Positions 10,587 to 41,091 of a stretch of 41,201 nt of DNA are shown here, piece by piece (position 1 is the stretch's first letter; each line of letters begins with the position of its first letter). Made by a program: the position numbers and the translations under genes. The notes beneath the pieces are model-generated. The model ran no database searches and was not told the DNA's origin. It was given only the letters and a program-made list of their open reading frames with translations. The stretch is from an uncultured Bacteroidales bacterium. Lineage in GTDB: Bacteria; Bacteroidota; Bacteroidia; Bacteroidales; UBA932. The stretch is taken from NCBI GenBank assembly GCA_944322575.1, contig CALUPK010000019.1, forward strand, positions 1 to 41,201. Direction: 5' to 3'.

Positions 10587-11611
10587 TTGGGTGCGACATC
10601 CATAGAAGGAGCACGCATCGAATACAAGAAAGGATGGAATCCGAATACCATCTACCGTTCCATCTGTGCCTTTGCGAATGATTTCGATAACAGCGGAGGC
10701 GGTTATATCATAGTAGGCGTACAGGAACAGAACGGACGCCCTGAAAGACCTGTAAAAGGATTGGATATGAACGAGATAGAACCGATAGAAAGGGATATGA
10801 TCGGATTCAACAACCTAATCCAACCGGCATATCACGTGCAACAGGAAGGTGCCGATGAAATGCCATTTTCGTCGGCACCTTCTGGAAAGGAACACGGAGG
10901 TAAAGCCGTCTGAAGGACCTGCAGACGGGGGTCTACGGCTGCGGGTGCCGGAAGGTGACGATGAAACGCCATTTTCGTCGGCACCTTCTGGAAGGGAACA
11001 CGGAGGTAAAGCCGTCAGAAGGACCTGCAGACGGGGGTCTACGGCCGCGAGTGCCGGAAGGTGAGGATGAAATGCCATTTTCGTCGGCACCTTCTGGAAG
11101 GGAACACGGAGGTAAAGCCGTCTGAAGGACCTGTGGAAGGGGGCACACGGCCGCGAGTGCCGGAAGGTGACGATGAAATGCCATTTTCGTCGGCACCTTC
11201 TGGAAGGGAACACGAAGGTAAAGCCGTCAGAAGGACCTGTGGACGGGGCACACGGCCGCGAGTACCGGAAGGTGCCGATGAAATGCCATTTTCGTCGGCA
11301 CCTTCTGGAAGGGAACACGGAGGTTTTACTGAGGGGAAAGCTAAATCCATCCGGCATTCATCCAAAATGAGCCCCAAAATGAGCCCCAAAAATCAAGTGT
11401 TCTCACCCCAAGGCAGAGCGAGATGTTGAAGTTGATAAGGAGTAATGACAGAATCACGCGGGTACAAATGTCCGAAGAGTTGAAAATATCGGAGGCCACC
11501 ATAAAGAGATAGATAAAGCACTTAAGGGAGCACGGGATTCTGAGTTATGACGGCCCTGCAAAATCAGGCAAGTGGACCATAAACCCTTCTGTAAACATAA
11601 AAGCCAAGTAG
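10587..11611 (+). pseudogene. Disrupted AlbA_2 (Schlafen-like) ATP-binding protein gene
   Basis: Remains of an AlbA_2/Schlafen AlbA-type protein. The 5' part (10587 to about 10843) encodes IEYKKGWNPNTIYRSICAFA, then NSGGGYIIVGVQEQNGRP, typical of the domain's start. It has no ATG: the frame opens after a stop at 10548-10550 and the first usable codon is TTG. From 10844 the frame runs into a tandem hairpin array, and the normal central part is absent. After the array, a KMSPKMSP run resembles the linker these proteins carry. A winged-helix end follows from 11423 in another frame, with an in-frame TAG at 11510-11512 and the final stop at 11609-11611. 5' loss, replaced middle, frameshift and nonsense codon all argue against a working product. 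Confidence 0.75.
10844..11324 (+). repeat. Tandem hairpin array A (106-bp unit, 4 full copies plus part)
   Basis: Units begin at 10844, 10950, 11056, 11162 and 11267, giving periods of 106, 106, 106 and 105 bp; the fifth stops after about 58 bp. Each unit starts with a hairpin. In the first copy, arms GAAGGTGCCGA (10845-10855) and TCGGCACCTTC (10872-10882) are perfect, and G-U pairs can extend the stem inward in RNA. Copies 2-4 carry one or two left-arm changes (GTGACG, GTGAGG), while copies 1 and 5 are perfect. A purine-rich tail of about 65 bp follows. Most unit lengths are not multiples of three, so the array is not a coding repeat, and long ORFs across it are artefacts. Confidence 0.95.
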
Positions 11612-11627
11612 TATGGTCTGGCTCCGG

Positions 11628-12314
11628 TTACTTCTTGCGGGCGGCCAGAGCCAGGAGCACTCCGAGGGCGACCCCGAGCAGGGCGGCGCAGAGGACACGG
11701 CCCGAGGGCGGCAGCAGGAAGGTCACCGTATGGGCGGGGAACCAGAAGAGCGGAATGGTCTTCTTGAAGACAAAGTCCCACTGGGCCTTCCAGTTGACGC
11801 GGCTCATCAGTTCGCCCATCTTCCAGGGCCTTACCAAAGCGAGGGCAGAGCCGTTATAGTCGGCGATATGGATGTCGCATATCTTGTGCAGGGTCATGAA
11901 GACCGGAGCGAAGATGGAGTTCATGGCCACGGAGACGCAGAACGCCACCAATACTTTCTGCCAGCACATAGGTCCCGCCAGATATTCCGTGGCACCGGCC
12001 AGGCCCATGTATTCCAAAAACGCCGGCGTACCTGTCGAGAATATGATCATCGCCATGTTGATGCCCATACCGAGGATGCCCCAGACTATCATTTTGGAGA
12101 CCAGACCGAAACCCTTGTAATAATACCGGCCTGTGGAGATACGCGCCCCCAGCATCTCGCCGGCAGTTGACAGTACCGCGAACTTAATGAAGCTCACTAT
12201 CATTCCGTGAGCGGCATTGAAACTCTTGTACAACCCGTACAGGGTATCCGAAAGCACGAATGGCAGGAACACCGCCGCCACCGCGCATATAAAAATCAGG
12301 TCAGCTTTCTTCAT
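11628..12314 (-). CDS. Mpv17/PMP22-like integral membrane protein
   Basis: Hydrophobic protein of 228 aa if started at the second Met (MKKADLIF, 12314); a start at 12332 would add six residues. About five membrane segments are visible: residues 4-22, 38-55, 75-95, 120-140 and the C-terminus. The C-terminal third, WKAQWDFVFKKTIPLFWF then LLPPSGRVLCAALLGV, resembles the signature region of the Mpv17/PMP22 family, which has bacterial members in Bacteroidota. The biochemical role of that family is unsettled; pores or small-molecule channels have been proposed for eukaryotic members. The gene lies 51 nt after the stop of the membrane/kinase fusion on the same strand. Family assignment is moderate. 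Confidence 0.65.
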   Translation of the reverse strand: MKKADLIFICAVAAVFLPFVLSDTLYGLYKSFNAAHGMIVSFIKFAVLSTAGEMLGARISTGRYYYKGFGLVSKMIVWGILGMGINMAMIIFSTGTPAFLEYMGLAGATEYLAGPMCWQKVLVAFCVSVAMNSIFAPVFMTLHKICDIHIADYNGSALALVRPWKMGELMSRVNWKAQWDFVFKKTIPLFWFPAHTVTFLLPPSGRVLCAALLGVALGVLLALAARKK

Positions 12315-12365
12315 GCCGCGAATATACTGCATGAATCCTGAAAACCGGTAACTTACCGCACTTTT

Positions 12366-13742
12366 TTACAGGGCATGACCGGCCTGACCGAGGTCCTTCG
12401 AGGCCCGCAGGATGATGTCGACTGCCCCTTCGATGCCCACCCGGTCGGTATTGAGCATAAGGTCGTACTCGCCGATGTCGGTCCATTGCCGGCCCGTGTA
12501 GCGGCGGTAGTGGTTGGCACGGCCGCTGTTGACGCGCTCTACCTTCCGTGCGGCCTCCTCAGCCGGAATATTGAACCTTGATGCGACACGGGAAGCGGCC
12601 GAGTCAGGGCCGGAAGTGACGAATACCCTGAGGACATGAGGATTGTCCCGGAGAATCCAGTTGCCGAGACGGCCTACTATAACGCACGGGCCGTGATGGG
12701 CAAGTTCGCGGATGGTACGGCTCTGGCTGACGTAGATAGCATCATCCTTCGAAGGATTCATTGAGACCGGAATACCGCTGTCCTCGAAAATCATCTCCCA
12801 CAGCTTGGCCGTGGAGATATTCTGCTCGTTCTCGGCCACGAACTCCGGCGTGCGTCCTATCTGCGCCGCCGTCCGGTCGATAATCTGGCGGCTGTAGCAG
12901 GGACAGCCCAGACGGCGGGCCACCTCCTCGCCCACCTCATTGCCTCCGCTGCCGTACGTACGTGCAATGGTGACGATGCGGTAATTGCCCCATACACTGC
13001 CTGCTCCGGCTGCCGAGGCCTGATCCGAATCCTGCCCGGCCCGCTCACTCTTAGGGATAAAGATACGGTCCAGCCACCCGATACGGGGCGAGAACACCCG
13101 CACCATGAAACCTACGTAGAACATCGACACCAGCGTGCCGGCTCCTACCATCTTCCAGTCCCAGTGTCCGAAAAATACGAACATGAACACCACGCCGACG
13201 GACACCAAAAAAGTGTCGGTACATATCTTGACCTTCCCGAAATCCTTCTTCAGGAACTTGGCTATCGCCAGCGGGAATCCCTCTCCGGCCAGCATCAGCG
13301 AGTCGCAGCGCACCTCGCAGGCAATACCGAAAGCCAGAATGGCACCGCCTATAAGCAGTTCCACAAATCTCAGCGGATACCCTACGGCGGGATTGATGTC
13401 AAACGGAATCTGCAGGAAACCTGTCATCCACATGGTCACGTCCGTATAGAAGCCGAACAGGAAGGAGACAAGTATCTGAGTCAGCTGCCGTTTCTCGAAA
13501 TCCTTCCGCAGCAGCAGTATCTGGGTCAGGATGAAGAATACGTGCATACATATCGTCAGCTGCCCCATAGTAAGCTTCATCCCGGGAATGAGGGACAGGA
13601 CGTAAGGCGGGGCGGATATAGGTGACGAACCCAAGTTGGCCCTGATGGACAGGGACGTACCGAATGCTATGACAAACAGAATCACCACGAAGGAGGCATA
13701 ACGCCTTATCCACTCCGCCCGGCTTCGTTTTATATTGCTCAT
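12366..13742 (-). CDS. YczE/YitT-like membrane domain fused to cytidylate-kinase-like domain
   Basis: A 458-residue two-part protein. Residues 10-225 hold about six membrane helices with SIRANLGSSPISAPP and GFYTDVTM, like the YczE/DUF6198 family. A polar Ala/Ser-rich linker (about 228-248) leads to a cytidylate-kinase-like domain (PF13189 type). That domain has VTIARTYGSGGNEVG as its phosphate-binding loop, RQIID, the VIVGRLGNWIL segment, and an Arg-rich VNSGRANHYRRYTG lid region. Such fusions exist in gut Bacteroidales, but their substrate is not known to me. They could couple nucleotide phosphorylation to a transported or membrane substrate; this is inference. A TAATTTTG box (plus-strand 13771-13778) precedes the gene, and the Mpv17-like gene follows. 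Confidence 0.85.
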   Translation of the reverse strand: MSNIKRSRAEWIRRYASFVVILFVIAFGTSLSIRANLGSSPISAPPYVLSLIPGMKLTMGQLTICMHVFFILTQILLLRKDFEKRQLTQILVSFLFGFYTDVTMWMTGFLQIPFDINPAVGYPLRFVELLIGGAILAFGIACEVRCDSLMLAGEGFPLAIAKFLKKDFGKVKICTDTFLVSVGVVFMFVFFGHWDWKMVGAGTLVSMFYVGFMVRVFSPRIGWLDRIFIPKSERAGQDSDQASAAGAGSVWGNYRIVTIARTYGSGGNEVGEEVARRLGCPCYSRQIIDRTAAQIGRTPEFVAENEQNISTAKLWEMIFEDSGIPVSMNPSKDDAIYVSQSRTIRELAHHGPCVIVGRLGNWILRDNPHVLRVFVTSGPDSAASRVASRFNIPAEEAARKVERVNSGRANHYRRYTGRQWTDIGEYDLMLNTDRVGIEGAVDIILRASKDLGQAGHAL

Positions 13743-13803
13743 GATGTATGCTATGCGATTAACCCGGATGCAAAATTACAGCATATTCTCCCTTTATGTT
13801 TAG

Positions 13804-13947
13804 AAAATGCAGGCTGTTTTCCAACCACCTGATAAACAAAGCATTACGATCAGCACCGCATTTTTCGCGCCGCCACAAGGAGCCGAGAATTGCACCCTCT
13901 TTTACAACGCACTGAATATCAGGGCAGTGCAAAACAGCTTGCATTTT
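13804..13947. repeat. 144-bp imperfect palindrome between divergent genes
   Basis: Outer arms AAAATGCAGGCTGTTTT (13804-13820) and, on the other strand, AAAATGCAAGCTGTTTT (13931-13947) differ at one base in 17. Matching continues inward with interruptions (CCTGATA, then GCATTTTTCG against GCAATTCTCG) to a centre near 13876. Because of this, both strands give look-alike ORFs beginning MQAV and ending NSLHF, which are not genes. It sits between the promoter boxes of the two flanking genes. It may be a decayed MITE-like element or a giant hairpin. Confidence 0.75.
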
Positions 13948-13968
13948 TCACCGATGTTGCTACTTTTG
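13939..13968 (+). promoter_or_regulatory. Candidate promoter of the GNAT-Ogt fusion gene
   Basis: TTG (13939-13941), a 19-nt spacer and a perfect TACTTTTG box (13961-13968), 22 nt before the ATG at 13990. The -33 element is inside the right arm of the 144-bp palindrome, so the palindrome may supply part of this promoter. Confidence 0.5.
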
Positions 13969-13989
13969 CATACATATTATGGCCGAATT

Positions 13990-15111
13990 ATGACTGACGG
14001 AAACAGAACAATAATAGAAACCTCGAGGCTGCTGCTGCGCGAAATGACAGCGGCGGACCGGCCGGACCTGTGCATGATACTGCAGGACAAGGAGGTAATG
14101 TACGCCTACAACGGTCCGTTCTCCGATGAGGAGGTGAACGGGTGGCTGGAGAGGCAGACGGGACGGTACAGGGAATGGGGCTACGGCCTCTGGGCAGTGG
14201 TGCTGAAGCAGACCGGAGAGATGATAGGCCAGTGCGGAGTGACCCGGCAGCTGTGGAACGGGGAGGAAATGCTGGAGGTCGGCTATCTGTTCCGGCACTC
14301 CCACTGGCATCAGGGCTATGCCACGGAAGCGGCCCGCGCCTGCATGGAATACGCCTTCGACGTCCTCGGGGCCTCCGAGGTCTGCTCCATCATCCGGAAC
14401 AATAACATTCCCTCCCAGCGAGTGGCCCTGCGCAACGGCATGCGGAAAGCCGAAGGAGTGATGGTAAAGCATTACAGAGGTGCGGAAATGCCCCACTGGC
14501 TGTACCTGACGACACGGGAAGAATTCAGCGGCAAAGCCGGCGGCACTGACGGAAGCGAATCCGGAAAGAACCGCAGAATCCTGACGGTACACTATCAGGC
14601 ACCCTGCGGAGAAATGCTCCTCGGCTCGCTCGGAGACAGGCTCTGCCTCTGCGACTGGACGCATGAGCTGCATCCGGGAAGGGTGGCGAACCGGCTCAGG
14701 AGAATACTCAAGGCGGAGTCGGAGGACTGCGGGCAAATAAGCAGCGATACTCCGGGGCAATCCGCATTTCCTGAAATCCTGCTAAGGACCGTCCGGGAAC
14801 TGGACGAATATTTCCGCGGTGAGCGGAAGGAGTTCGACATCCCCCTGCTCCTGGCCGGCAGTGAGTTTCAAAAGCGCGTCTGGCAGCAGCTGCGGCACAT
14901 ACCCTACGGACAGACCGTATCCTACGGAGAGCTGGCCGCAGCCATAGGTGCCCCGAAATCCGTCCGGGCTGTGGCCAATGCCAACGGTGCCAACGCCATT
15001 TCCATCATTCTGCCCTGCCACCGCGTCATCGGAAGCGACGGCAGCCTCACCGGCTACGGCGGAGGAATCGACACCAAACGCTACCTTTTGGAACTGGAAA
15101 AGAAATACTAA
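13990..15111 (+). CDS. Fusion of GNAT acetyltransferase and O6-alkylguanine-DNA alkyltransferase (Ogt)
   Basis: A 373-residue protein of two complete enzymes. Residues 1-180 form a RimJ/RimL-like GNAT N-acetyltransferase: ETSRLLLREMT start, EVGYLF, HWHQGYATEAARA as acetyl-CoA loop, and NIPSQRVALRNGM. After a polar linker (180-196), residues 197-373 form Ogt/MGMT: EFQKRVWQQLRHIPYGQTVS, helix-turn-helix with VRAVANANG, and the alkyl-accepting Cys343 in PCHRVIG. Ogt removes O6-alkyl groups from guanine in a one-time reaction. The start at 13990 is preferred over 13807 because the upstream frame only translates the palindrome. Gene fusion joins protein acetylation to DNA repair in an unclear way. 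The palindrome and promoter lie just upstream. Confidence 0.9.
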   Translation: MTDGNRTIIETSRLLLREMTAADRPDLCMILQDKEVMYAYNGPFSDEEVNGWLERQTGRYREWGYGLWAVVLKQTGEMIGQCGVTRQLWNGEEMLEVGYLFRHSHWHQGYATEAARACMEYAFDVLGASEVCSIIRNNNIPSQRVALRNGMRKAEGVMVKHYRGAEMPHWLYLTTREEFSGKAGGTDGSESGKNRRILTVHYQAPCGEMLLGSLGDRLCLCDWTHELHPGRVANRLRRILKAESEDCGQISSDTPGQSAFPEILLRTVRELDEYFRGERKEFDIPLLLAGSEFQKRVWQQLRHIPYGQTVSYGELAAAIGAPKSVRAVANANGANAISIILPCHRVIGSDGSLTGYGGGIDTKRYLLELEKKY

Positions 15112-15127
15112 ACGAGCTTCTGATAAT

Positions 15128-17164
15128 ATGAAACCGAATCGGATTTTAGCGGCAATCATCGCCCTTTCATGGCTTTCGGCCACCGGAAACTGGGCAGACG
15201 CCCGGCAATACTGGACTCTGGACAGGAACTCCAACAGCATTTCGTGGCAGCCCGAGGCCGCTCAGGAACACTACGACCATATCGAGATGAGCGGCCGGCA
15301 GGTATCGGCCGTACTGCGCTACGGAGTAGACAGCGAAGGCAGATTCGTGCTGAACAAGAGTATGATATGGCCTATGCTGAGGACTGTGCCCAACAACACA
15401 CACGCCAGCCTGATGCGCCGTTTCGACTGGAATCCGCTGGATGCGGTGACAGCGGACGGACGCAGCCTGTCCGAACATGTGGAGAGGCTTACGATTGACG
15501 GTACACTGAAGGTACACAGCAGTATTTCCGTCGGAAGAAACCGCAGTCTTTCACTGGAACGGACTTACTTTCCATCAACGGACATGCCGGCCCTGCTGGA
15601 GCTGTACACATTCAGGAATACCGGGACAGAACCCGTGTACATCGAATGGCCCGCGATACAGGACGAAGTGACCACCGACCCCGCCAGAGGGACAGAAGGC
15701 AGCTACCGCATCTATCTGACCGTATCTGAGGGAGGAGCCGTAACCCTCGCACCGGGAGGCACCTGCTCGTTCGCAGCGTCAGTCTCGGCAGCAGGCCCCG
15801 GGGAGGAAAGCGTCTGCCTGACAGCCGAAGAGACCTTCACAGAGCTGGACAAACGCATGCAGGCCGTCAACGGATGGACCGGCAATCTGGTGCTGGAGAC
15901 TCCCGACTCCGTAATCAACCGGATGTTCGCCTTCTCGAAAATCCGCGCATGCGAGAGCATCTTCGAGACGGAGGGAGGCCCCATGCACGGTCCTGGCGGA
16001 GAATCCTACTACGCCGCCATCTGGGCCAATGACCAGGCCGAATACATCAATCCCTATTTCCCCTTTACCGGCTATGCCTACGGCAATGCCTCCGCCCTCA
16101 ACTCCTTCCGCCATTTCGCCAGGTTCATGAATGATGAATGGAAGCCCATTCCAAGCTCCATTATCGCAGAGGGCAAGGATATCTGGAACGGAGCCGGCGA
16201 CAGGGGGGATGCGGCCATGATAGCCTACGGGGCCGCAAGATATGCCCTGGCAAGAGGGGACATGAACGAGGCAGGGGAGCTGTGGCCCCTGATACAGTGG
16301 ACTTTGGAATACTGCCGCCGCCATCTGAACTCCGAAGGCACCGTAAACTCTGACAGCGATGAGCTGGAAGGACGTTTCCCGGCAGGAGAGGCCAATCTCT
16401 GCACGTCCTCACTATACTACGACGCCCTGATCTCAGCTGCATACCTGGCTGAAGAGCTGGGAGACCGGCAGTCGTCCGGAAAATACCGCAAGCAGGCCGC
16501 CGCCATGAAGAAGGCCATTGAGAATTATTTCGGGGCCACGGTAGAGGGCTACGAGACATACGCCTATTACGAGGGCAATGACATACTCCGCTCGTGGATA
16601 TGCATCCCCCTCACTGTCGGAATCAACACCAGGGCATCCGGCACGATAGACGCCCTCTTCTCACCCCGGTTATGGACGGAAAACGGCCTTCTCACACAGG
16701 CCGGAACCACCACTTTCTGGGACCGTTCCACCCTCTATGCCCTGCGCGGTGCATTTATGGCCGGAGCTACGGAAAAGGCTCTGGACTTCCTGAAACAATA
16801 TTCGGCGACCAGACTGCTGGGAGATCACGTACCCTACGCAGTCGAGGCATGGCCCGAGGGCAACCAGCGGCATCTCTCAGCCGAAAGCGGACTTTACGGA
16901 AGAATCATAACCGAAGGAATATTCGGAATAAGACCTACGGGACTCCGGACATTCGACCTCACCCCGCACCTGCCCCAGGAATGGAATGAAATGGCACTCA
17001 GGCATATCCGAGCATTCGAAGGAGACTTCGACATTGAAGTGACCAGGGCCGGGGCAGAAAGGGAAGGAGACTTCATCCGAATTGTCGTAAAAGACCGGGA
17101 AGGAATCATCCTGGACAGGACTGTCCGGAACGGCTCGACCGTCAGCTGCCGGACCGCACGCTGA
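15128..17164 (+). CDS. Secreted six-hairpin glycosidase-like protein
   Basis: Protein of 678 aa starting at the ATG at 15128; the frame extends upstream only as an overlap of the Ogt gene. A signal peptide (IALSWLSATGNWADA, about 8-27) is followed by a beta-sandwich (about 30-260) and an (alpha/alpha)6 toroid (about 290-610). In the toroid, GPGGESYYAAIWANDQAEYI and NPYFPFTGYAYG form a conserved acid-bearing region, followed by SDELEGRFPAGEANLCTS and FWDRSTLYALRG. A small beta domain ends the protein. Fold type is clear; I cannot assign a GH family or substrate. It begins 16 nt after the Ogt stop. Six-hairpin glycosidases trim alpha-linked sugars and rhamnose- or fucose-type residues, among others. 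Confidence 0.75.
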   Translation: MKPNRILAAIIALSWLSATGNWADARQYWTLDRNSNSISWQPEAAQEHYDHIEMSGRQVSAVLRYGVDSEGRFVLNKSMIWPMLRTVPNNTHASLMRRFDWNPLDAVTADGRSLSEHVERLTIDGTLKVHSSISVGRNRSLSLERTYFPSTDMPALLELYTFRNTGTEPVYIEWPAIQDEVTTDPARGTEGSYRIYLTVSEGGAVTLAPGGTCSFAASVSAAGPGEESVCLTAEETFTELDKRMQAVNGWTGNLVLETPDSVINRMFAFSKIRACESIFETEGGPMHGPGGESYYAAIWANDQAEYINPYFPFTGYAYGNASALNSFRHFARFMNDEWKPIPSSIIAEGKDIWNGAGDRGDAAMIAYGAARYALARGDMNEAGELWPLIQWTLEYCRRHLNSEGTVNSDSDELEGRFPAGEANLCTSSLYYDALISAAYLAEELGDRQSSGKYRKQAAAMKKAIENYFGATVEGYETYAYYEGNDILRSWICIPLTVGINTRASGTIDALFSPRLWTENGLLTQAGTTTFWDRSTLYALRGAFMAGATEKALDFLKQYSATRLLGDHVPYAVEAWPEGNQRHLSAESGLYGRIITEGIFGIRPTGLRTFDLTPHLPQEWNEMALRHIRAFEGDFDIEVTRAGAEREGDFIRIVVKDREGIILDRTVRNGSTVSCRTAR

Positions 17165-17212
17165 GCCCGGCCGGCAAGTAAAACGTAGGGACGTTTATTT
17201 ATTAACAACATT

Positions 17213-18238
17213 ATGGACAACACATCACAGACCATCACGGTGATATGCTTCTCACCGACACATACCTCACGGGCGATAGCCGGGGCAGTGGCCGACGGAA
17301 TGGCCCGTACCCGTTGCGGCGCCGGAGCAACTGCCTCTTGCCCAAGTATTGTCAGGACTCTGGACCTGACCCTCGACAGGTCCGATGAGCCGATAATCCT
17401 GACTTCGGGCGAAACCGTAGTCCTCGGCGCACCGGTCTACGCGGGCAGGGTCGCACCGGAAGCAGTCCGGCGGCTCAAGCGCATCCAGGTAGCCGCAGGG
17501 GCATCCATACCGGCCGTAGTTACGGTGACCTACGGCAACCGGGACTATGAGGACGCGCTGGTCGAGCTCTACGACCTGGCCCTCTCGCTGGGCCTCACCC
17601 CATTCGCCGCCGGAGCCTTCATCGGAGAGCACAGCTACAGCACTCCCGCGATGCCTATTGCCGAAGGACGCCCCGATTCCATGGACCTGGCCGATGCCAG
17701 CATCTTCGGAGGGGAGTGCGCCCGCAAACTGGAAAGCCCGGGAGCATTCGCACCTTTCCACATCAAGGAAAACCGTCCGTACAAAGAACCGTCCCGTCCG
17801 GCGTCCTCCCCTGCAGCCGCACATCCCTCCGGTTCCAGTACGGCTGCCGTCCCTCCAGCACATTCCGCCGTCACTGCAAGTTCTGGCACGCCTGCCATTC
17901 CTCCAGTACATTCCGCCGTCTCAGCAAGTTCTGGCACGCCTACAGTTCCCTCAACACATTCCGCCGCTACTGCAAGTCCAGACAGACCTGCCGTTCCAGC
18001 CGTACCCGTGACCGCCGACGGCTGCCCGCTCTGCGGTGAATGTGCAGCAGTCTGCCCCACCGGAGCCATTGTCCTGGACTCCGGCTCCATGAAAGTGCTG
18101 ACAGACCCCTCCCTCTGCATCCGCTGCTGCGCCTGCGTCAAGGCCTGCCCCGCCGGAATGCGCACCTACAGCACCCCCTTCGCCGCCTTCCTCCACGAGC
18201 ACTGCTCCGCCCGCCGCGAGCCGGAGACATTCCTGTAA
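17213..18238 (+). CDS. Flavodoxin/ferredoxin fusion (EFR1-like) with Pro/Ser-rich linker
   Basis: Cytosolic electron carrier of 341 aa. Residues 1-170 are flavodoxin-like: ICFSPTHTSRAIA phosphate loop, APVYAGRVAPEAV and VTVTYGNRDYEDALVEL. Residues about 272-320 carry two 4Fe-4S motifs, CPLCGECAAVCP and CIRCCACVKACP. Between them lies a low-complexity linker of three 16-residue repeats (HSAVTASSGTP-like). This architecture matches EFR1-type ferrodoxins, which usually lack so long a linker. Likely role is electron supply to a radical or reductive enzyme; the partner is not evident, though a radical SAM gene is encoded about 8 kb away. A weak stem AAACGT/ACGTTT (17181-17196) lies before the gene. 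Confidence 0.88.
   Translation: MDNTSQTITVICFSPTHTSRAIAGAVADGMARTRCGAGATASCPSIVRTLDLTLDRSDEPIILTSGETVVLGAPVYAGRVAPEAVRRLKRIQVAAGASIPAVVTVTYGNRDYEDALVELYDLALSLGLTPFAAGAFIGEHSYSTPAMPIAEGRPDSMDLADASIFGGECARKLESPGAFAPFHIKENRPYKEPSRPASSPAAAHPSGSSTAAVPPAHSAVTASSGTPAIPPVHSAVSASSGTPTVPSTHSAATASPDRPAVPAVPVTADGCPLCGECAAVCPTGAIVLDSGSMKVLTDPSLCIRCCACVKACPAGMRTYSTPFAAFLHEHCSARREPETFL
17861..18004 (+). repeat. 48-bp coding minisatellite, three copies
   Basis: Starts of CATTCCGCC fall at 17861, 17909 and 17957, an exact 48-bp period. Each unit encodes 16 residues rich in Ser, Ala, Thr and Pro in the linker of the flavodoxin/ferredoxin fusion. Copy number could vary without shifting the frame. Confidence 0.9.
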
Positions 18239-18531
18239 GCTCCACTGCCACAGACAAGAAATAGTATTTCTGCGGATAACCAAAGTATACTTGAGAAAGT
18301 CAAGGAAGCCTCCTGATTTCGGGCAAGTGATGGGCAGAACACTGATTTTCAAACAGTTGAAAAACGGAGTGCACCCCGAAGTAAATTCGTTCAATAATGT
18401 ACTCAGCCCGGCCCCTACACAGTGCCTTCTGAGCGTGGCTTGAGGACAGCTGCTTGTCTTTCTGTAGTATGTTCGGTACAGTCAATTACGTACTGCCGCC
18501 GGCAGGCTGAGTCTTCCGAAGATGGAGAAAA
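18239..18531. other. Intergenic region with no supported gene
   Basis: Between the ferredoxin fusion and the CPBP gene stop. Short frames exist on both strands, but none has a recognisable domain or plausible start. The sequence is slightly AT-richer than the flanks and could be decayed DNA. No convincing terminator was seen. Confidence 0.5.
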
Positions 18532-19308
18532 TCAGAACTTCCAAACGGGATAATCGAAGACTTTCCCGCCTTTCTTTCTTCGGACATAGACCGTCAGGCC
18601 AACGGCCAGTGCAATGCTGACAACCCGGACAATATTGGAAATCAAGCCTCCGGCTGCGACTTCCGTGCCTTCCATCGTGAAAACATGCCATGCTCCGTTC
18701 ATCAGCATATGCAGCCCGACAGGAACCCATATGTTGAAATTCCACTCGACGTACATCCAACTGAAGTACAGCGCTCCGATAAAGGTTACACCGAATGCGG
18801 CAAGCGCAGAAAGCACATCGTGCCCCTGATAAAGATGCACAGAGCCGAAATAAAGCGCAGGCAATATGACTGCCCAGAAGAAACCAGTTCTTGCATACCG
18901 GAAAAGCAGACCGAACATAAAAGCCCTGAACACCAACTCTTCCTTAAACCCGGTGAGGATGCACTTATCATAAAGCACCTGGAAAGTCAACTCCGTATTG
19001 AAGTTGCCGAAAAAGGGAAATACAAGATACAATGGCAACGTGCAAATGACAGCTGCTCCAAATCCTTTGAGAATATTTCCGTTCAGCCCGAGAAAAGAAA
19101 ATATCTCCTTCGGCTTCATTACAACTGCCAGCAGAATAAAAGCCACAATAACAAGGAGCAATGCCCTCATCGACTGATTGAGGAAAGAGGCGGCCGGTAA
19201 ACCTGTAATTGCTGTTAACATGCCAATATTTCTCCAGAAGAGAATGATTATCACGCTTACAACAATGGAATACAGTATTCTTGCTGGCTTTGATATAAGT
19301 TGAATCAT
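18532..19308 (-). CDS. CPBP-family intramembrane protease
   Basis: Membrane protein of 258 aa of the CPBP (CAAX protease/bacteriocin-processing, Abi) family. All motif residues are present: Glu123-Glu124 with Phe127-Arg128 (KEELVFR), His158 in YFGSVHL, and His200/Asn204 in GLHMLMN, so it is probably active. About seven to eight membrane helices are visible. The start at 19308 (MIQLISKPAR) is chosen because an open frame continues upstream only through a tandem repeat array and lacks family similarity. Family members process prenylated or bacteriocin peptides, or act as immunity proteins; the target here is unknown. Array B lies 75 nt upstream, which is unusual for a promoter region. Confidence 0.88.
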   Translation of the reverse strand: MIQLISKPARILYSIVVSVIIILFWRNIGMLTAITGLPAASFLNQSMRALLLVIVAFILLAVVMKPKEIFSFLGLNGNILKGFGAAVICTLPLYLVFPFFGNFNTELTFQVLYDKCILTGFKEELVFRAFMFGLLFRYARTGFFWAVILPALYFGSVHLYQGHDVLSALAAFGVTFIGALYFSWMYVEWNFNIWVPVGLHMLMNGAWHVFTMEGTEVAAGGLISNIVRVVSIALAVGLTVYVRRKKGGKVFDYPVWKF

Positions 19309-19382
19309 GATATCGAAACTTTGACCGCAAAGATATATGGTTTTTTGCAGAATGCTACCACTTAGCTGACATCCAAGAGACA

Positions 19383-19690
19383 CGCGGTCAGTACCACTGC
19401 TGCAGCGTCTGTAGCGGCGTTCCAGGTACTGCCCTGTTGCAAAGGTGAACCGTTTTCCCGTATTCCGGTACACCTTTGCAGTGGCGTGCGGACACGACCA
19501 TTGCCACAGCGCCTGTAGCGGCGTTCCCGGTATTTCCCCGCCGCAAAGGTGAACCGTTTTCCGCGTTTTGGGTACACCTTTGCAGGGACGTATGGTCACG
19601 ACCATTGCCACAGCGCCTGTGGCGGCGTTCCAATTACTGCCCTGCCGCAAAGGTGAACCGTTTCCCGCGTTTTGGGTTCACCTTTGCAGG
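19383..19690 (-). repeat. Tandem hairpin array B (104-bp unit, about three copies)
   Basis: The motif CAAAGGTGAACCG starts at 19440, 19544 and 19648, an exact 104-bp period. Each unit has a hairpin. The third copy is perfect, GCAAAGGTGAACC with GGTTCACCTTTGC (19647-19687); the first two have one mismatch. Read on the minus strand, the hairpin precedes a tail beginning GGGAACGCCGCTACAGG, in the same order as array A. The array lies between the CPBP and AlbA_2 genes. ORFs across it are spurious. Confidence 0.93.
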
Positions 19691-19750
19691 CGTATGCGAC
19701 ACTTTGCTGGGACATGAGTTTTACTCAGCCTTTGCCGTGGCCCCTTTGAC

Positions 19751-20635
19751 TCAGTCGTTGGCATAATAGAGAAAGCCGCGGCTGTCGTGACGGATCCCGA
19801 CGAGACCCCAGTGCACGAAGAGCGAGAGCAGGTGAATTACCCGACGGCGGGGAATCGTCACGCGGCGGCATATCTGCGACAGGGTCAGGCCGGAAGAAGA
19901 AACCGGGAGAGCTGCGGAACCGGAAAAGGCGGGACAGAAAGGGCCGGGAGCGGAAACGCCGGAACTGCTACGGGCTGCAGGTAAGCCGGACTGGGCAAAC
20001 TGACGGGAGGTACTGCCTGAAGCGGCTGCGATGACGACGAGCAGCTCCCTTTCCTGTTCCGTGAACGTCATAGAGACCGGGTCTTGCCGCGGCCATGAAT
20101 CCGATACCCTGTGTCCGGAACCGGAACTCTCATATCCGGAGCCAGGGACTCCGTATCCGGGACCCGGCGATATTCTGCCAGCACTGCCGCCACGGCCATT
20201 GTCTGCCTCGCACCTCCACACCCCGATATGCACCGGCGAAGCTAAGATATTCTCGTCGGCGATACGCACGTAGGCCAGTCTGCGCCCGTCCTCCTCCTTC
20301 ACCAGCACCGGCTTGCGGACAGCCGGCCCGACCGAGGCGACCAGCACCGAACGGCCCTCGGGACGGTACACCCGCATGTCCACCTCAACCGCCGGAGTGC
20401 AGTAGACCTGAGCCGCAGCCTCGACCATGTACATCTCCTCCTCGCTGCGCACCCCGGCTATGCGGCCATTGTCCTTGACCCCTATCAGCAGCCGGCCTCC
20501 CTCAGTGTTGGCAAACGCCGACAGCGACCGCGCAATCTTCCGCGAGTCCGATATCTCGAACTTGAAATCCTGCCGGACATGCTCGCCCTCCGAGATAAGG
20601 GCCCGTATGTACGCCGTATCGTCCTGTACTTTCAT
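19751..20635 (-). CDS. AlbA_2 (Schlafen-like) domain protein with low-complexity linkers
   Basis: Protein of 294 aa started at the Met of MKVQDDTAY (20635); an upstream extension would run into the divergent gene and lacks domain support. Residues 1-135 are an AlbA_2-type domain: SEGEHVRQDFKFEI, ARSLSAFANTEGGRLLIGV, YVRIADENI. Two Gly/Ser/Pro-rich stretches follow (about 150-180 and 215-245). A C-terminal helix-turn-helix-like end (LTLSQICRRVTIPRRRVIHL) closes the protein. AlbA_2 proteins bind nucleic acid or ATP and often act as regulators. Only 27 nt separate its start from the AlkD-like gene, so a shared divergent promoter is likely. Array B lies 60 nt beyond the stop. Confidence 0.8.
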   Translation of the reverse strand: MKVQDDTAYIRALISEGEHVRQDFKFEISDSRKIARSLSAFANTEGGRLLIGVKDNGRIAGVRSEEEMYMVEAAAQVYCTPAVEVDMRVYRPEGRSVLVASVGPAVRKPVLVKEEDGRRLAYVRIADENILASPVHIGVWRCEADNGRGGSAGRISPGPGYGVPGSGYESSGSGHRVSDSWPRQDPVSMTFTEQERELLVVIAAASGSTSRQFAQSGLPAARSSSGVSAPGPFCPAFSGSAALPVSSSGLTLSQICRRVTIPRRRVIHLLSLFVHWGLVGIRHDSRGFLYYAND

Positions 20636-30485: not shown

Positions 30486-30489
30486 TTCA

Positions 30490-30558
30490 CTTTAAACTTT
30501 TGCGGTGTTTTGCTTTAAGCTTTTGCGGTATTTTACTTTAAACTTTTGCGGTATAATC
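30490..30558. repeat. Three 23-bp repeats upstream of ATPase copy 2
   Basis: Units at 30490-30512, 30513-30535 and 30536-30558 share CTTTAAACTTTTGCGGT with one or two changes. They begin 4 bp beyond the -33 element. The third unit also opens the 127-bp repeat R2, and only one copy is present at the matching place near 36582. Confidence 0.85.
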
Positions 30559-35164: not shown

Positions 35165-35185
35165 AACTACCTGTGTATTTTGAGA

Positions 35186-35253: not shown

Positions 35254-35254
35254 T

Positions 35255-35296: not shown

Positions 35297-35476
35297 TCAG
35301 TTTTTAAGACATCCGAGCGGAATTACTTTTACCCCGTCCGGCCTGGTGTAGGCCATACGGCCGCCCGTTAAGATTATCAGCAGATCCGGTTCACGCAGAG
35401 GGACTTGTCTTTCCCCTTCATTATGTTGCCGTATAAGACGCTGCAACTCGGTTAAATGCCGTGCACCTGACTCTAT
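35261..35476. repeat. Direct repeat R1, right copy (216 bp)
   Basis: Partner of 29103-29318. Beyond 35476 the ATPase similarity stops abruptly, which places a recombination or deletion boundary there. Confidence 0.95.
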
Positions 35477-35477
35477 T
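35297..35477 (-). pseudogene. 3' remnant of an AAA/DUF4143 ATPase gene
   Basis: Encodes the last 60 residues of copy 2 (IESGARHLTELQRLIRQ to PLGCLKN) with one residue changed. The whole P-loop region is missing. The open frame continues upstream into unrelated sequence, so no functional product is expected. Confidence 0.9.
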
Positions 35478-35524
35478 TGCATTTTTGCGATTCCCATTCG
35501 GTATTCCTGATTTTCGTTGACTGG

Positions 35525-35740
35525 CAGGTGCCGGGGAAAGCGGCCTTTTGCCACCACCTTCTCGATTTCGTTATAAACCGACCCGCCTCAGAGACCTCTC
35601 TCGCCGGACATGCCTCGATTTCCCCTCCGGAAGGTGCCGGGGAAAGCGGCATATCTCCACCACCTTCTCGATTTCGTTATGAGCGGACCAGCCTCAGTGC
35701 CATCTCCTGCAGGCCTTATCGGGAAAGTCATCACGGTAAG
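35525..35740 (-). repeat. Tandem hairpin array C (106-bp unit, about two copies)
   Basis: GGTGCCGGGGAAAGCGGC starts at 35527 and 35633, a 106-bp period. The second copy has arms GAAGGTG (35630-35636) and CACCTTC (35661-35667), and the first is weaker. On the minus strand, the order hairpin then GGAGGGGAAATCGAGG tail resembles the other arrays. The array fills the gap between the ATPase remnant and the CPBP gene. No gene is visible in it. Confidence 0.85.
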
Positions 35741-35744
35741 CTGC

Positions 35745-36395
35745 TTAAAAGATAATCATTGACGGCATATTGCCGATTATATGTACAACTATGCTGAATA
35801 ACATTCCGTGTTTTATTCTTGCGTATCCATATAATATGGAGCCGGGAATCTTGGCACAAGCATAACAAACAACATACAGCCACTGTGACACATCTAAAGT
35901 CTGATGGCTGTAATTAATTATATGCAACATAGCGAAAAGGATTGCTGTTGAATAGAAGAAATCCTTGAATCGTACTTGCAGAAGCCATTTGCCCCAAATG
36001 AGGTTTATGACAGCTGATGAAATTATTGCAAATACTATCCGGCATAATAGATGTTCCGAATAGAGTCCTCCTGCGAAAATTACCTTAGAAAAGATAAAGG
36101 CTATTACGGCTACCGATATGTAGAGATTAAATCTGCTTCTTTTCAATGGTAATCTGAATCCAAGTTCTTCTATAATTGGGGGTATAATAATCAGAAAACA
36201 TAGAGGCAAAACAGATTTATCAGATGTCATTGCTGGCAAATCAACTCCTGCAATGACAAATACGGATGCAGTCAGAACTTCAAAGAATAGTGGTACTGAC
36301 AGACACAGCAGAACCGACAATAGCATCACCCTTACGCTGAAATCATAAGGACAATTCTCCTGAGGATTCTTGATGTATTGCCACAACTGCTTCAT
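35745..36395 (-). CDS. CPBP-family intramembrane protease, second gene
   Basis: Membrane protein of 216 aa. Motif residues Glu76-Glu77 and Arg81 (EELGFR), His158 (FAMLHII) and His205/Asn209 (VVHIIGN) are all present, so it may be active. Six or seven membrane helices are seen. It shares only motifs with the first CPBP gene. Its low GC content against the flanking permease gene suggests recent arrival. A TACTTTTG box (plus-strand 36418-36425) lies 23 nt before the ATG. Array C begins right after its stop. The spacer 36396-36605 holds no other gene that I can see. Confidence 0.85.
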   Translation of the reverse strand: MKQLWQYIKNPQENCPYDFSVRVMLLSVLLCLSVPLFFEVLTASVFVIAGVDLPAMTSDKSVLPLCFLIIIPPIIEELGFRLPLKRSRFNLYISVAVIAFIFSKVIFAGGLYSEHLLCRIVFAIISSAVINLIWGKWLLQVRFKDFFYSTAILFAMLHIINYSHQTLDVSQWLYVVCYACAKIPGSILYGYARIKHGMLFSIVVHIIGNMPSMIIF

Positions 36396-36580
36396 GAAAT
36401 AATATCTAAAGATTCTACAAAAGTAATAAAACTCTTTCCCCTAAGCACCTCTAATCAATCGTTTGTTGAATTTGCTATTTGTGATTATGACAAGCCTATG
36501 GGGTTGCTATCTCGTTACCCAATTTCAAGCAATCCGACCAATTGATTTATTTTAAGCGAGTTATCTTTTCTTGCAAAAGT

Positions 36581-36707
36581 TACTTTAAACTTTTGCGGTA
36601 TAATCTCACCCATTGATGGCGCGGACAGGATCGACCGTAGCGGCCTTCCAGGCGGGGATGAGGCCGGAGAGGATGCCGAGGACGACGGCTATGAGCATGC
36701 CGGCAAG
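36581..36707. repeat. Direct repeat R2, right copy (127 bp)
   Basis: Native copy, covering the FtsX-type permease 3' end and 25 bp beyond its stop. See the left copy at 30534-30660. Confidence 0.95.
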
Positions 36708-37886
36708 GGCATTGTCGGGGGAGAGGGTGATGGTGAAGTATTCGGAGACGGCATTGACCGGAATGGAAATGAGGAAGACTAAGAGAATGCCCACCAGGCC
36801 GCCGGCTAAGGAGAGGAAGGAGGCCTCCACCATGAACTGGGTCAGGATCACGTAGCGCTTGGCTCCGAGGGCCTTCTGAATGCCGATCTGGCTCATGCGC
36901 TCCTGGACGGAGACGAACATGATGTTGGCGATGCCGAAGCCGCCGATGATCAGGGAGAAGGCTCCGATGATCCAGCCCGCCTTGCTGATGCCGCGGAAGA
37001 CGGAGTCGAGCATGTCGAGCAGGAAGGTCATCTCGTTGATGGCGAAGTCATCCCGCTCCGAGGGGGAGAGGCCGCGGCAGGAACGCAGCAGCAGGCGCAG
37101 CTCGTCTATGAAGGCCTCGCGGGAGACTCCATCCGCCGGAGCCGCCATCATCATCCCCGAGCCCCACGCCGAGGCCAGCACCGTCTTGCCGAACTGCAGC
37201 GGGAGGACCACCGCATCGTCCGTATTGACGATGGAGGCCATGCTCTCACCCTGCTTTTCCAGGACGCCGATGACTATTGCACTGCCGCCCTTGACCTTGA
37301 CCTTCTTACCGATGGGGTAGGAGTCCCCGAAGAGCTCCCGGGCGACATTGTACCCGAGGATAGCCACATTGGACCCTCCGCGGATCTCCATCTGGGAGAA
37401 GTCGCGGCCCTCGGCCAGGGAGTAGCTCATCACATTCTCCAGTCCGTCAGTGGTGATGACCAGGAAGGCGTTGGAATAATTGTTGCGGCGGTAGGAGGCA
37501 TTGCCGTTGCCGAGGATGACGTAGACCACGCTCTCGGCCAGAGTGGCGTTGCGGGCGACATATTCGAAATTCTCCTCAGTGATCTCCGGCCGCTGGAGAT
37601 AGTCCCACCACTGCAGCGGCTCTCCGTCCTCCCCTTCCTCCTGAGTCATGGGGAAACGGTCGATGTAGACGATGTCGCTCCCGAAGGACCGGACACCCTC
37701 CATGATATTGGACTTGAGCGAGTCCACGGCGCAGAACACCGCCACTATCGAAAAGATGCCGACAGTGACTCCGAACAGCGAGAGAAAAGTCCTGAGCTTG
37801 TCAGACTTGATGGAGAAAAAAGCGAAAGAGGCGCTCTCCGCAATCAACCCCACAACTATCCTCAGCTCTTTCACGAATTTTTTCAT
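36606..37886 (-). CDS. ABC transporter permease, MacB/FtsX type
   Basis: Inner-membrane permease of 426 aa. Near the N-terminus LRTFLSLFGVTVGIFSIVAVF forms the first helix (about 30-52). A MacB periplasmic-core domain follows (about 60-275, with YSLAEGRDFSQMEIRGGSNV, AILGYNVARELFGDSYPIGK). The FtsX domain (about 295-426) has three helices and the typical VQERMSQIGIQKALGAKR and PAWKAATVDPVRAING ends. Such permeases work with an ATPase to move peptides, lipoproteins or drugs through the envelope; no ATPase gene is adjacent. The stop of MutS lies 18 nt upstream, suggesting cotranscription. Its 3' end is copied at 30534-30660. Confidence 0.93.
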   Translation of the reverse strand: MKKFVKELRIVVGLIAESASFAFFSIKSDKLRTFLSLFGVTVGIFSIVAVFCAVDSLKSNIMEGVRSFGSDIVYIDRFPMTQEEGEDGEPLQWWDYLQRPEITEENFEYVARNATLAESVVYVILGNGNASYRRNNYSNAFLVITTDGLENVMSYSLAEGRDFSQMEIRGGSNVAILGYNVARELFGDSYPIGKKVKVKGGSAIVIGVLEKQGESMASIVNTDDAVVLPLQFGKTVLASAWGSGMMMAAPADGVSREAFIDELRLLLRSCRGLSPSERDDFAINEMTFLLDMLDSVFRGISKAGWIIGAFSLIIGGFGIANIMFVSVQERMSQIGIQKALGAKRYVILTQFMVEASFLSLAGGLVGILLVFLISIPVNAVSEYFTITLSPDNALAGMLIAVVLGILSGLIPAWKAATVDPVRAING

Positions 37887-37904
37887 AAGACGTCTGAACT
37901 ATAG

Positions 37905-40598
37905 TTATTTGTTTATACCTACCTTGCGCTGGAGCTCCCGCAGCGTGTCGAATGCGTCCATCGGCGTCATCGAGTTGAGGTCCATCGCCTTGAGAGTGTC
38001 CCGGATGCTCACTAAGAGAGGGTCGTCGAGCTGGAAAATGGAAAGCTGCACTTCCTCCTGGGCGGCGCTGCGGTCCCGTTTCTTCTGCCTCAGGGACTGG
38101 ACCCTGCCCTTGATGGACGAGTCCCCGGCCCCGGATGCCCCGGCCTCGAGCTTCTTGAGCACCTTCTCGGCCGAGAGGACCACTTCCGGCGGCACCCCGG
38201 CCAGCCTCGCCACATGGATACCGAAGCTGTGGGCAACCCCGCCTTCGCAAAGTTTCCTCAAAAATAGGATTTTTCCGTCAGATTCCTTCACTGCGATGTG
38301 AAAGTTTTTTACCCTTTTGTAATTTTCCTCCAGCTCGTTCAGCTCGTGGTAGTGCGTCGCGAAGAGGGTCTTGGCCCCGCCGCCCCGCTCGTGGATGTAC
38401 TCTACGATGGCCCAGGCTATGGACATGCCGTCGAATGTGCTGGTGCCGCGGCCGATCTCGTCGAGCAGAATCAGGGAGCGCGGAGTCATGTTGTTGAGGA
38501 TGGCGGCGGTCTCGAGCATCTCGACCATGAAGGTGGACTCGCCACGGGAGATGTTGTCGGAGGCGCCGACACGGGTAAATATCTTGTCGAACAGGCTGAT
38601 GTGTGCGGACTTGGCGGGCACGAACGAGCCTATCTGGGCCATCACCGCTATCAGGGCGGTCTGCCTCAGAAGGGCGGACTTACCGGACATGTTCGGACCG
38701 GTGAGGATGATGATCTGCTGCTGCTCGCTGTCGAGGTACAGGTCGTTGGCCACGTACTCCTCCCCGGCGGGCATCATCCGCTCGATGACCGGGTGGCGGC
38801 CCTGCTCTATCTTCAGGATCTCGCCCTCGTCCACTAACGGGCGGCAGTAGCCGTAGTCGGCGGCAGCCTGGGCAAATGACAGGAGGCAGTCGAGGCGGGC
38901 TATCAGGGCAGCGTCCTTCTGCACGGCGGGGATGGCGGCCTGAATGCGGGTAATCAACTCGTTGAATATGCGGGACTCGATGGCGTATATCTTCTCCTCG
39001 GCCCCGCCTATCTTCTCCTCGTACTCCTTCAGTTCGGGGGTGATGTAGCGCTCGGCCGAGACGAGGGTCTGCTTGCGGATCCACTCGGGGGGCACCTTGT
39101 CCTTGTGGGCGTTACGCACCTCGAGGTAGTAGCCGAAGACGTTGTTGTAGCTGATTCTTAAAGACGTGATGCCGGTGCGCTCTATCTCGCGCTGCTGGAT
39201 GCCGGCGATGATATCCTTGCCGTGGGTCACGATGCCGCGCAGCTCGTCCAGCTCGGCGTCCACACCCTGGGCTATCACCTCGCCCTTGCCAATCTGGGCG
39301 GCCGGGTCCTTGCTCAACGTCCGCGTCAGCTCGGCCTTCAGCTCCGGGCAATCGTCTATCTCCCTGGCCATACGGGCGAGCGGGCCTTTCTTATCGGTCT
39401 TCTCCGTGAGCAATACCTTCAGCGGCAGGAACTGGTCAATGCCCCGCCGCAGCTGCATCACCTCGCGGGGAGAGACGCGGCCAGAAGCGGCGCGGGAGAG
39501 GATGCGCTCGAGGTCGCCCATCGCGGCTATCCTCTGCGAGAGTTCCGAGGACAATTCCCTGTCGTTCAGCAGGGCATCAACGCTGTCCTGCCGTGTGGAT
39601 ATCTCCGCCAAATCCCTCGACGGCATGGTCAGCCACGAGCGAAGCAGGCGGGCGCCCATCGGGGAAGAGGTCTTGTCAATCACGTCCAGAAGGGTCACGC
39701 CCCCCGGAGCGGCCGGCTCCACTAATTCGAGGTTACGGACGGTGAAGCGGTCCAGCCAGACGAAGCCTCCCTCGTCGATGCGGGATATGGTGCTTATCTG
39801 GGCCAATGTCCGGCCCGGTATGTATTCTGTGTCCTCCAGGCGGTTCGACTCTAAGTAGAACAGCAGGGCCCCGGCAGCAGTCACGCCTAATCTCAGGCTC
39901 TCCACCCCGAACCCCTTCAGGGAGTCCGTCTTGAAATGCTTGATCAGCTTGCGGTACCCCGACTCGAAAACGAAGGCCCAGCCCTCCATCGTGGAGATGT
40001 AGATATTCGAGGCCGGGTTGGTGAACCTCTCCTTTACACCCTTCTCGAAACCCTTCTGGACCAGCAGTTCCTTGGGCGCGAAATCGGCTATCAGCAGATC
40101 GAGGTAGTCCAGGTCGCCCTCAGCCACCTTGAACTCTCCGGTGGACACATCCAGGAACGCGATACCGCCCCGGTCCTTCGAGAAACACAGCGCGGCGATA
40201 TAGTTGTTCTCCTTCTGAGTCAGCACCTGGTCGCTGTAGACCACGCCCGGCGTGACAATCTCGGTGACCCCCCTCCTGACCAGCTTCTTGGCCAGCTTCG
40301 GATCCTCCAACTGGTCGCACACAGCCACCTTATAGCCGGCCCTCACCAACTTGGGCATGTAGCTCGGAAGCGAATGGTGCGGAAACCCCGCCAGCTCGAT
40401 ATAGCCCTGGTCCCCGTTCGACTTGCGGGTCTGCACGATGCCCAGCACCTTGCTGGTAGTCACCGCATCCTCCCCGTACGTCTCATAGAAGTCCCCCACC
40501 CGCATCAGCAGCAGGGCCTCCGGACAAGCCGCCTTGAACTTGTAGTACTGCTTTATCAGCGGCGTATCCTCCTTTTCCTTTTTTTCCTTGTTTGCCAT
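37905..40598 (-). CDS. mutS: DNA mismatch repair protein MutS
   Basis: Mismatch sensor of 897 aa, slightly longer than the usual 850-880. The mismatch-reading Phe-X-Glu is in GDFYETY (Phe37). The connector, lever and clamp regions follow. The ATPase has Walker A GPNMSGKSALLRQTALIAV, Walker B LILLDEIGRGTSTFDG and the His of TLFATHYHELNELEE. The C-terminus includes LAGVPPEVVLSAEKVLKKLE. It recognises mispairs and recruits MutL. A TATTTTTG box (40626-40633) lies about 28 nt before the ATG. The permease gene follows after 18 nt. Start at 40598 keeps the Lys-rich KEKKEKEDTPLIKQYYKFKA N-terminus. Confidence 0.98.
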   Translation of the reverse strand: MANKEKKEKEDTPLIKQYYKFKAACPEALLLMRVGDFYETYGEDAVTTSKVLGIVQTRKSNGDQGYIELAGFPHHSLPSYMPKLVRAGYKVAVCDQLEDPKLAKKLVRRGVTEIVTPGVVYSDQVLTQKENNYIAALCFSKDRGGIAFLDVSTGEFKVAEGDLDYLDLLIADFAPKELLVQKGFEKGVKERFTNPASNIYISTMEGWAFVFESGYRKLIKHFKTDSLKGFGVESLRLGVTAAGALLFYLESNRLEDTEYIPGRTLAQISTISRIDEGGFVWLDRFTVRNLELVEPAAPGGVTLLDVIDKTSSPMGARLLRSWLTMPSRDLAEISTRQDSVDALLNDRELSSELSQRIAAMGDLERILSRAASGRVSPREVMQLRRGIDQFLPLKVLLTEKTDKKGPLARMAREIDDCPELKAELTRTLSKDPAAQIGKGEVIAQGVDAELDELRGIVTHGKDIIAGIQQREIERTGITSLRISYNNVFGYYLEVRNAHKDKVPPEWIRKQTLVSAERYITPELKEYEEKIGGAEEKIYAIESRIFNELITRIQAAIPAVQKDAALIARLDCLLSFAQAAADYGYCRPLVDEGEILKIEQGRHPVIERMMPAGEEYVANDLYLDSEQQQIIILTGPNMSGKSALLRQTALIAVMAQIGSFVPAKSAHISLFDKIFTRVGASDNISRGESTFMVEMLETAAILNNMTPRSLILLDEIGRGTSTFDGMSIAWAIVEYIHERGGGAKTLFATHYHELNELEENYKRVKNFHIAVKESDGKILFLRKLCEGGVAHSFGIHVARLAGVPPEVVLSAEKVLKKLEAGASGAGDSSIKGRVQSLRQKKRDRSAAQEEVQLSIFQLDDPLLVSIRDTLKAMDLNSMTPMDAFDTLRELQRKVGINK

Positions 40599-40625
40599 TT
40601 CGAGTCACTTCCGATTTAAGAGAGG

Positions 40626-40633
40626 CAAAAATA
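40626..40633 (-). promoter_or_regulatory. -7 box before mutS
   Basis: Minus-strand TATTTTTG, a perfect TAnnTTTG. A matching -33 TTTG was not found at the usual distance. Confidence 0.45.
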
Positions 40634-40703
40634 CTAAAATCCGCGTAATCGCGATAGATGTTTTACGACAAAGCACATCCGGCCTTTTCATTTTGAAACT
40701 GCA

Positions 40704-41091
40704 CACCTTCGGAAGGTGAGACGAAAACGAGGGAAATCTGCGCACCTTCGGAAGGTGGAAGAAGGTGGAAGGAGGATAAGGTGTATGATGAGAGAGCCTG
40801 TGGCAGGGGCCAAGCGGAATGCGATTCCGCAACGGCACTGAATCGCGGAATTTGCTGCCGTTGTGGAAACGGGACGGAAGGACAAGGCCGTGCAGAAGAC
40901 CTATGGAAAGGGTGCTGCGATGAAAGCCATGCCGCAACGGCACCGAATCGCGGAATTTGCTGCCGTTGTGGAAACGGGACGGAAGGACAAGGCCGTGCAG
41001 AAGACCTATGGAAAGGGTGCTGCGATGAAAGCCATGCCGCAACGGCACCGAATTGCGGGATTTGCTGCCGTTGTGGGAACGGGACGGAAAA
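40704..41091 (+). repeat. Tandem hairpin array D (105-bp unit, about three copies plus degenerate start)
   Basis: GCCGTTGTGG starts at 40857, 40962 and 41067, an exact 105-bp period. Hairpins CCGCAACGGCA with TGCCGTTGTGG (one G-U pair) lie at 40827-40866, 40932-40971 and 41037-41076. The tail (CGGGACGGAAGGACAAGGCC) resembles array A. A degenerate leading part contains two CACCTTCGGAAGGTG palindromes at 40704-40718 and 40743-40757. The array fills the space between mutS and the lipoprotein gene; frames across it are artefacts. Confidence 0.93.

Follow-up and report, generated by a model that had tools for sequence, protein, structure and literature searches.

The 41,201-nt window analysed here, contig C19 of a 2.30-Mb draft genome (85 contigs, 92% complete) from an uncultured Bacteroidales bacterium, carries four arrays of hairpin repeats, A to D, with unit lengths close to 105 bp. 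Protein searches returned relatives from Candidatus Coprenecus and from Bacteroidales metagenome-assembled genomes, and the window itself probably belongs to Candidatus Coprenecus. We consider it highly probable that these arrays depend, as repeated non-autonomous elements, on a divergent transposase system in this genus, of the repetitive extragenic palindrome (REP)-associated tyrosine transposase (RAYT) type. The evidence consists of the repeat families, the adjacency of hairpins to transposase genes, the lineage-specific pairing of the two, their co-occurrence among genomes, one pair of filled and empty sites, differences in copy number, and enzymes with a RAYT-like fold and conserved catalytic residues.

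Hairpin arrays in the window and across the genome

All four arrays exist as a sequence-only reading of the window had described them. Tandem Repeats Finder recovered A (10844-11324, period 106, 4.5 copies, 93% match), B (19403-19690, period 104, 2.8 copies, 86% match) and D (40827-41089, period 105, 2.5 copies, 97% match); C is missing from its list, and a scan for hairpin units still places two hairpins there. Counted from the first letter of the window, the features are:

10844..11324, plus strand: array A, five hairpins with unit starts near 10845, 10951, 11057, 11163 and 11268; period 106 bp; kin to the C type
19383..19690, minus strand: array B, three hairpins near 19428, 19534 and 19636; period 104 bp
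35525..35740, minus strand: array C, two hairpins ~106 bp apart; its type matches the array 12 nt after a transposase stop codon on contig C41
40704..40757, plus strand: E-type unit that opens array D, with CACCTTCGGAAGGTG twice, at 40704 and 40743; outside the D repeat proper
40825..41089, plus strand: array D proper, three hairpins near 40825, 40930 and 41035; period 105 bp; its type matches the hairpin 7 nt after a transposase stop codon on contig C84

Arrays A, B and C all have the AAGGTG/CACCTT arms noted earlier, as does the opening of D. The repeats had also been taken as a single family and D as one array, and here the picture is more divided. D proper stands as an array, its opening belongs to a double-palindrome type, E, that forms its own arrays elsewhere with a period of 117-118 bp, and the repeats fall into several subfamilies: A and C, which are related (array A matches a C-type array at 70% across ~158 nt); D, with a stem of its own; B; E; and F. 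The proposed alignment of the A and D tails scores only slightly above shuffled sequences (40.5 versus a mean of 24.0, sd 5.8, with 1 of 300 shuffles reaching 40.5).

Further copies across the genome bear out the description of dispersed hairpin-plus-tail units of fixed length. At E <= 0.01 the genome holds 20 matches to A, 26 to C and 98 to D (queried with its E opening), counts that include the query's own place, cross-matches of related types and both strands; array B matches only itself. An array in relative G011 has a stem that resembles B by eye, and was rejected as a relative because it has no BLAST match to B at 1e-5. A profile scan of 39 stretches of the genome (~269 kb of the 2.30 Mb) identified 180 hairpin units, grouped into 52 clusters. 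These are minimum counts, because more F-type sites exist outside these stretches. By family they comprise 80 D, 43 C, 38 E, 8 A, 8 F and 3 B units, with the A versus C and E versus F labels approximate. Two or more hairpins, in register, occur in 47 of the 52 clusters. Among 106 spacings below 200 bp between same-family neighbours, 75 are 104-106 bp and 17 are 116-118 bp; another 22 pairs join different families. Other hairpin types are spaced at 116-118 and 127-128 bp, in steps of roughly one helical turn, and periods of 104, 105, 106, 117 and 118 bp were found by Tandem Repeats Finder at relatives' loci. There and in the window the units follow one another in direct tandem order; the hairpins are near-symmetric, and the strand calls of neighbours are mixed in places. 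For 14 of the 52 clusters, a contig ends no more than 300 bp away, and because arrays often end contigs they probably break draft assemblies.

Between families, whole stems have been exchanged and yet still pair. Within families, compensatory changes were sought as double-change pairs, with none in D or A and one each in C and E (8 cells each), a weak test on which we do not rely because many of the near-symmetric hairpins entered its alignments on both strands (the 80 D units, for instance, gave 138 distinct rows). The sequence GGGAA occurs in the hairpin loop of 8 of 9 representatives, but this motif was picked after inspection and is not used as evidence. The window arrays and the other loci read are intergenic, and the window has no Rfam match at the gathering threshold and no tRNA match.

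Array A sits within a decayed Schlafen/AlbA_2 gene (10587-11565): the AlbA_2 portion (PF04326, E 2.6e-9) precedes the array, and a winged-helix-like stretch with a stop codon follows. Array B and a CAAX-protease gene (together 18238-19767) are absent from the matching place in relative G002 (L170), where ~180 bp of other DNA is found.

Probable RAYT-type transposases and the hairpins behind them

A Y1_Tnp search of the genome identified three genes, and a search with an alignment of relatives gave seven matches, including one partial copy. The C-type hairpin begins 12 nt past the stop codon of the transposase on contig C41, and the D-type hairpin 7 nt past that on C84. Double palindromes of type F, CTCCTTCGGAAGGAG, lie behind the C10 gene, and the C15 gene has flanks resembling terminal inverted repeats (TIRs) in place of hairpins. 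For the C2 and C40 genes and a C15 fragment, no hairpin array was present within the 330 nt read. In 19 genes read by eye (seven from this genome and 12 from relatives), a hairpin occurs within ~120 nt of the stop codon in ten, and two are of the TIR type. A second set of 12 loci shares many genes with these 19 (L101, for example, is G010:C3), so that the counts are not additive; it includes seven with C- or E-type hairpins, one with a lone palindrome and four of the C15 kind. Behind the G000:C15 transposase (L069 3900-5780) is a ~186-bp element with TTCTCACGTTGC-type inverted ends, which has the opposite orientation in L111.

The enzymes contain an HUH motif, a catalytic tyrosine and a downstream asparagine, with H51, H53, Y108 and N112 invariant in 15 aligned sequences. 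Their fold is nearer to RAYTs than to IS200 transposases, with the E. coli RAYT 4er8 as the structural match. Scores against the family models are ambiguous: 28-39 bits for NF047646 (curated cut-off 80 bits), and for PF01797 19.8-21.9 bits by hmmscan and 22.0-23.9 in the genome search, where two of three genes exceed the 23-bit cut-off. The enzymes are ~315 residues long, with a long C-terminal part that has no Pfam match and that, modelled alone, has a predicted local distance difference test score (pLDDT) of 63.6.

At the C10 locus, the two halves of the transposase differ in how they compare with its alleles. When this genome is aligned with G010 (L108) in steps of 100 nt, identity is 89-94% in the first three windows of the gene and 39-65% in the next six; beyond the gene, the arrays are 34-53% identical and the downstream gene 83-100%, save one window at 59%. 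The downstream similarity is true of L108, whereas the neighbouring DNA differs in L105 and L106. Against all four alleles compared, residues 1-98 of the protein are 94-97% identical and residues 131-312 41-42%. The repeats behind the gene read CTCCTT.AAGGAG in this genome and CACCTT.AAGGTG in G010, so that a base pair of the stem is exchanged. These alignments are most simply read as the replacement of a cassette that contained the C-terminal part together with its repeats. It is possible, though we put it forward tentatively, that the C-terminal part is an exchangeable hairpin-recognition module, swapped together with the adjoining repeat type by recombination at a fixed locus that keeps the HUH half and the neighbouring genes, and that such swaps redirect which repeat family spreads; unit length may also be held to whole helical turns. 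In G017, the genome richest in F repeats (50 sites), the C part of the transposase fragment shares 81% identity with that of the F-type allele and 46% with that of the E-type allele, which favours pairing with F. F repeats are not confined to genomes with F-type alleles, however, which weakens the idea that the C-terminal part sets specificity.

Pairing of enzyme and repeat among genomes

Repeat type follows the transposase tree. In a tree of 29 proteins, 23 of them labelled by repeat type in eight groups, the labels change seven times, the minimum, and none of 200 shuffles was as low; the labels were assigned by eye, with L105 labelled E from a lone palindrome and L109, L110, L115 and G009_C55 assigned to TIR although BLAST gave no match to the flanks of C15, and near-copies inflate tests of this kind. 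Array-linked enzymes form one clade and the TIR types another.

Co-occurrence was compared in 19 genomes of the genus, all drafts, in which the C, D and E counts per genome are partly lower bounds. Among the matches listed, genomes with an intact C-type RAYT have 28 (G000), 26 (G002), 23 (G007) and 37 (G010) C-type matches, the genome with a broken copy has nine (G003), and those where no C-type RAYT was found have nine, two, one and, in eleven cases, zero. G001 was counted among the last, its fragment being of the E/F type (100% to it). Where a D-type RAYT was found, there are 43, 28, 12 and 22 D-type matches among those listed, a signal weaker than that of C. No D, C, E or F match occurs in G006, G014 and G018, which have no RAYT match at all, or in G005, which has only weak ones.

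Several observations count against a RAYT-type partnership. Neither hairpin nor TIR is nearby in 7 of the 19 genes read, one of which has an A/C-type hairpin ~270 nt away, and no cognate RAYT was found for B. D-type matches are also numerous where no D-type RAYT was found (among those listed, 70 in G010, 33 in G003, 32 in G001, 24 in G017 and 15 in G002), and D matches in genomes with the enzyme differ from the others only at p 0.048, in drafts whose arrays often end contigs. The genomes are related, so that co-occurrence does not represent many independent events. The expectation that F repeats would be limited to genomes with an F-type allele failed, as G010 has 37 exact F sites and yet an E-type allele. 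The RAYT tryptophan motif (WQ/WE) is absent, with GxLGEPS- or GxLFES-type sequences in 15 of 15 rows, and of 337 stem starts, counted on both strands with patterns allowed to overlap, one has GT[AG]G at the hairpin foot.

Related genomes differ at single sites. Between a metallo-β-lactamase (MBL)-fold-type gene and atpK, G013 and G017 read GCCGAATAG-CTG-CTGGATAC..., an empty site, and G010 reads GCCGAATAG, then C-type arrays from the hairpin foot on, then CTGGATAC..., a filled one. The transposase is also missing from this locus in G001, G013 and G017, and in G010 it lies on the far side of a MATE gene. The MATE/MBL-type/transposase segment is reversed in this genome (L065 1-4300), G002 and G007 relative to G010 (L202), consistent with inversion between oppositely placed C arrays. 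At the array site near atpK (L200, L201 and L202), G010, G013 and G017 also have an adjoining palindromic stretch of >100 bp (ACACAAAGATAACCTCCG...), which G001 lacks. Copy number varies by whole units: the D locus has one E unit and three D hairpins in the window and in G010, and three E units and two D hairpins in G007, and one to four hairpins follow the C-type RAYT in five genomes.

Direct tandem order and whole-unit differences are also what replication slippage yields, and the arrays could be plain minisatellites, grown by slippage and recombination, with the neighbouring transposase genes incidental. This is improbable, as slippage does not disperse a sequence to dozens of places and gives no account of a lineage-specific hairpin right behind each transposase or of repeat types that track the transposase tree. 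It is less probable still that the repeats are selected host elements, such as structured RNAs, terminators or protein-binding DNA, whose 105-bp spacing of about ten helical turns is itself under selection. Narrow spacing within types despite differing sequences, and the one-turn steps to the other types, would fit such elements, but three periods are too few for a test of helical phasing, Rfam gives no match, and close relatives differ in presence and copy number at the same site. Of the two causes the sequence-only reading offered for fixed length, a shared amplifying mechanism is supported and selection on spacing is not. Its comparison with BrickBuilt, and with it a miniature inverted-repeat transposable element (MITE) mobilised by an unrelated DD(E/D) transposase, we regard as very unlikely: the arrays are small, repeated, intergenic, non-coding and built of tandem repeats, but no TIR pair was noticed bounding the C, D and E arrays, the linked genes encode HUH-Y enzymes, the TIR-like flanks of the C15 transposase belong to a different element, and the unit is 104-118 bp rather than 23 bp. 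The likely amplifiers are instead cognate RAYT-type transposases on other contigs.

Proposed mechanism and known systems

We propose a RAYT-type mechanism in which each transposase lineage would own a hairpin type, found both immediately after its stop codon and at sites dispersed over the genome. The HUH-Y enzyme would recognise and bind this hairpin where DNA is single-stranded, as in the lagging-strand template, cut at the hairpin foot, and move hairpin-plus-tail DNA to new, mostly intergenic places. Arrays would grow in tandem, and slippage, unequal recombination or renewed insertion would add or remove whole units. The enzymes may be active and the repeats mobile today, and the host may draw some benefit. 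The likely outcome is a semi-selfish repeat population that its transposases keep up and whose arrays drift in length in steps of whole units.

Such a system resembles the REPtrons of E. coli and Pseudomonas (REPs with RAYT/TnpAREP enzymes) in its HUH-Y enzyme, a lineage-specific hairpin by each gene, many intergenic copies, and several enzyme-repeat pairs per genome, the last established for REPs (PMC2817692, PMC6006769). Co-evolution of enzyme and REP has been argued from biochemistry (PMC8266576). Unlike REPtrons, it lacks the GT[AG]G head and the tryptophan motif, its enzyme has ~315 residues with a long C-terminal part, and its hairpins stand in direct tandem with a ~105-bp period; inverted pairs of the BIME/REPIN kind were not found. 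With these canonical features failing, we regard it as a variant that works like REP/RAYT and not as a canonical REP, so that a match to a well-known family holds for its way of working and not for the defining head.

In P. fluorescens, REPs and REPINs are reported to form tandem arrays next to RAYTs; in strain SBW25 these arrays are ordered and include flanking DNA, some by RAYT genes, but doublets dominate there and tandem arrays are a minority, unlike the in-register clusters described above (PMC3116915). TnpAREP subclasses 2.4 and 2.6 occur in Bacteroidetes, and the flanking structures of 2.6 are atypical and lack GT[AG]G, but its enzymes have a median length of 179 residues and a WQ motif; subclass 2.1 has long C-terminal domains and is reported there without REPs (PMC6006769), all compared by description rather than by placement in a tree. 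TIRYTs and TIRtrons recall the C15-type enzymes with their TIR-like flanks and ~186-bp element, whereas the array-linked enzymes form a separate clade (PMC3733652). BrickBuilt of Porphyromonas gingivalis likewise consists of intergenic tandem repeats in a Bacteroidales genome, but its 23-bp units lie within a leader and tail and inverted-repeat MITE ends, and the abstract mentions no linked RAYT (PMC4596501).

A literature search confined to papers outside subscription found no account of RAYT-linked tandem arrays in Bacteroidales. The new features are Bacteroidales enzymes without the tryptophan motif, repeats without GT[AG]G, direct tandem as the main form, and the apparent exchange of a C-terminal/repeat cassette. 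RAYT-like systems are thereby extended to enzymes and repeats that searches using those two features would miss. The genus also offers natural experiments on how a RAYT shifts to a new repeat and how tandem REP arrays originate, in its several transposase-repeat pairs per genome, its broken or absent transposase copies accompanied by fewer repeats, its sites both filled and empty, and the two alleles at C10.

The window contains two other tandem repeats, of 48 bp at 17840-17997, inside an open reading frame with a ferredoxin domain, and of 23 bp at 30489-30554.
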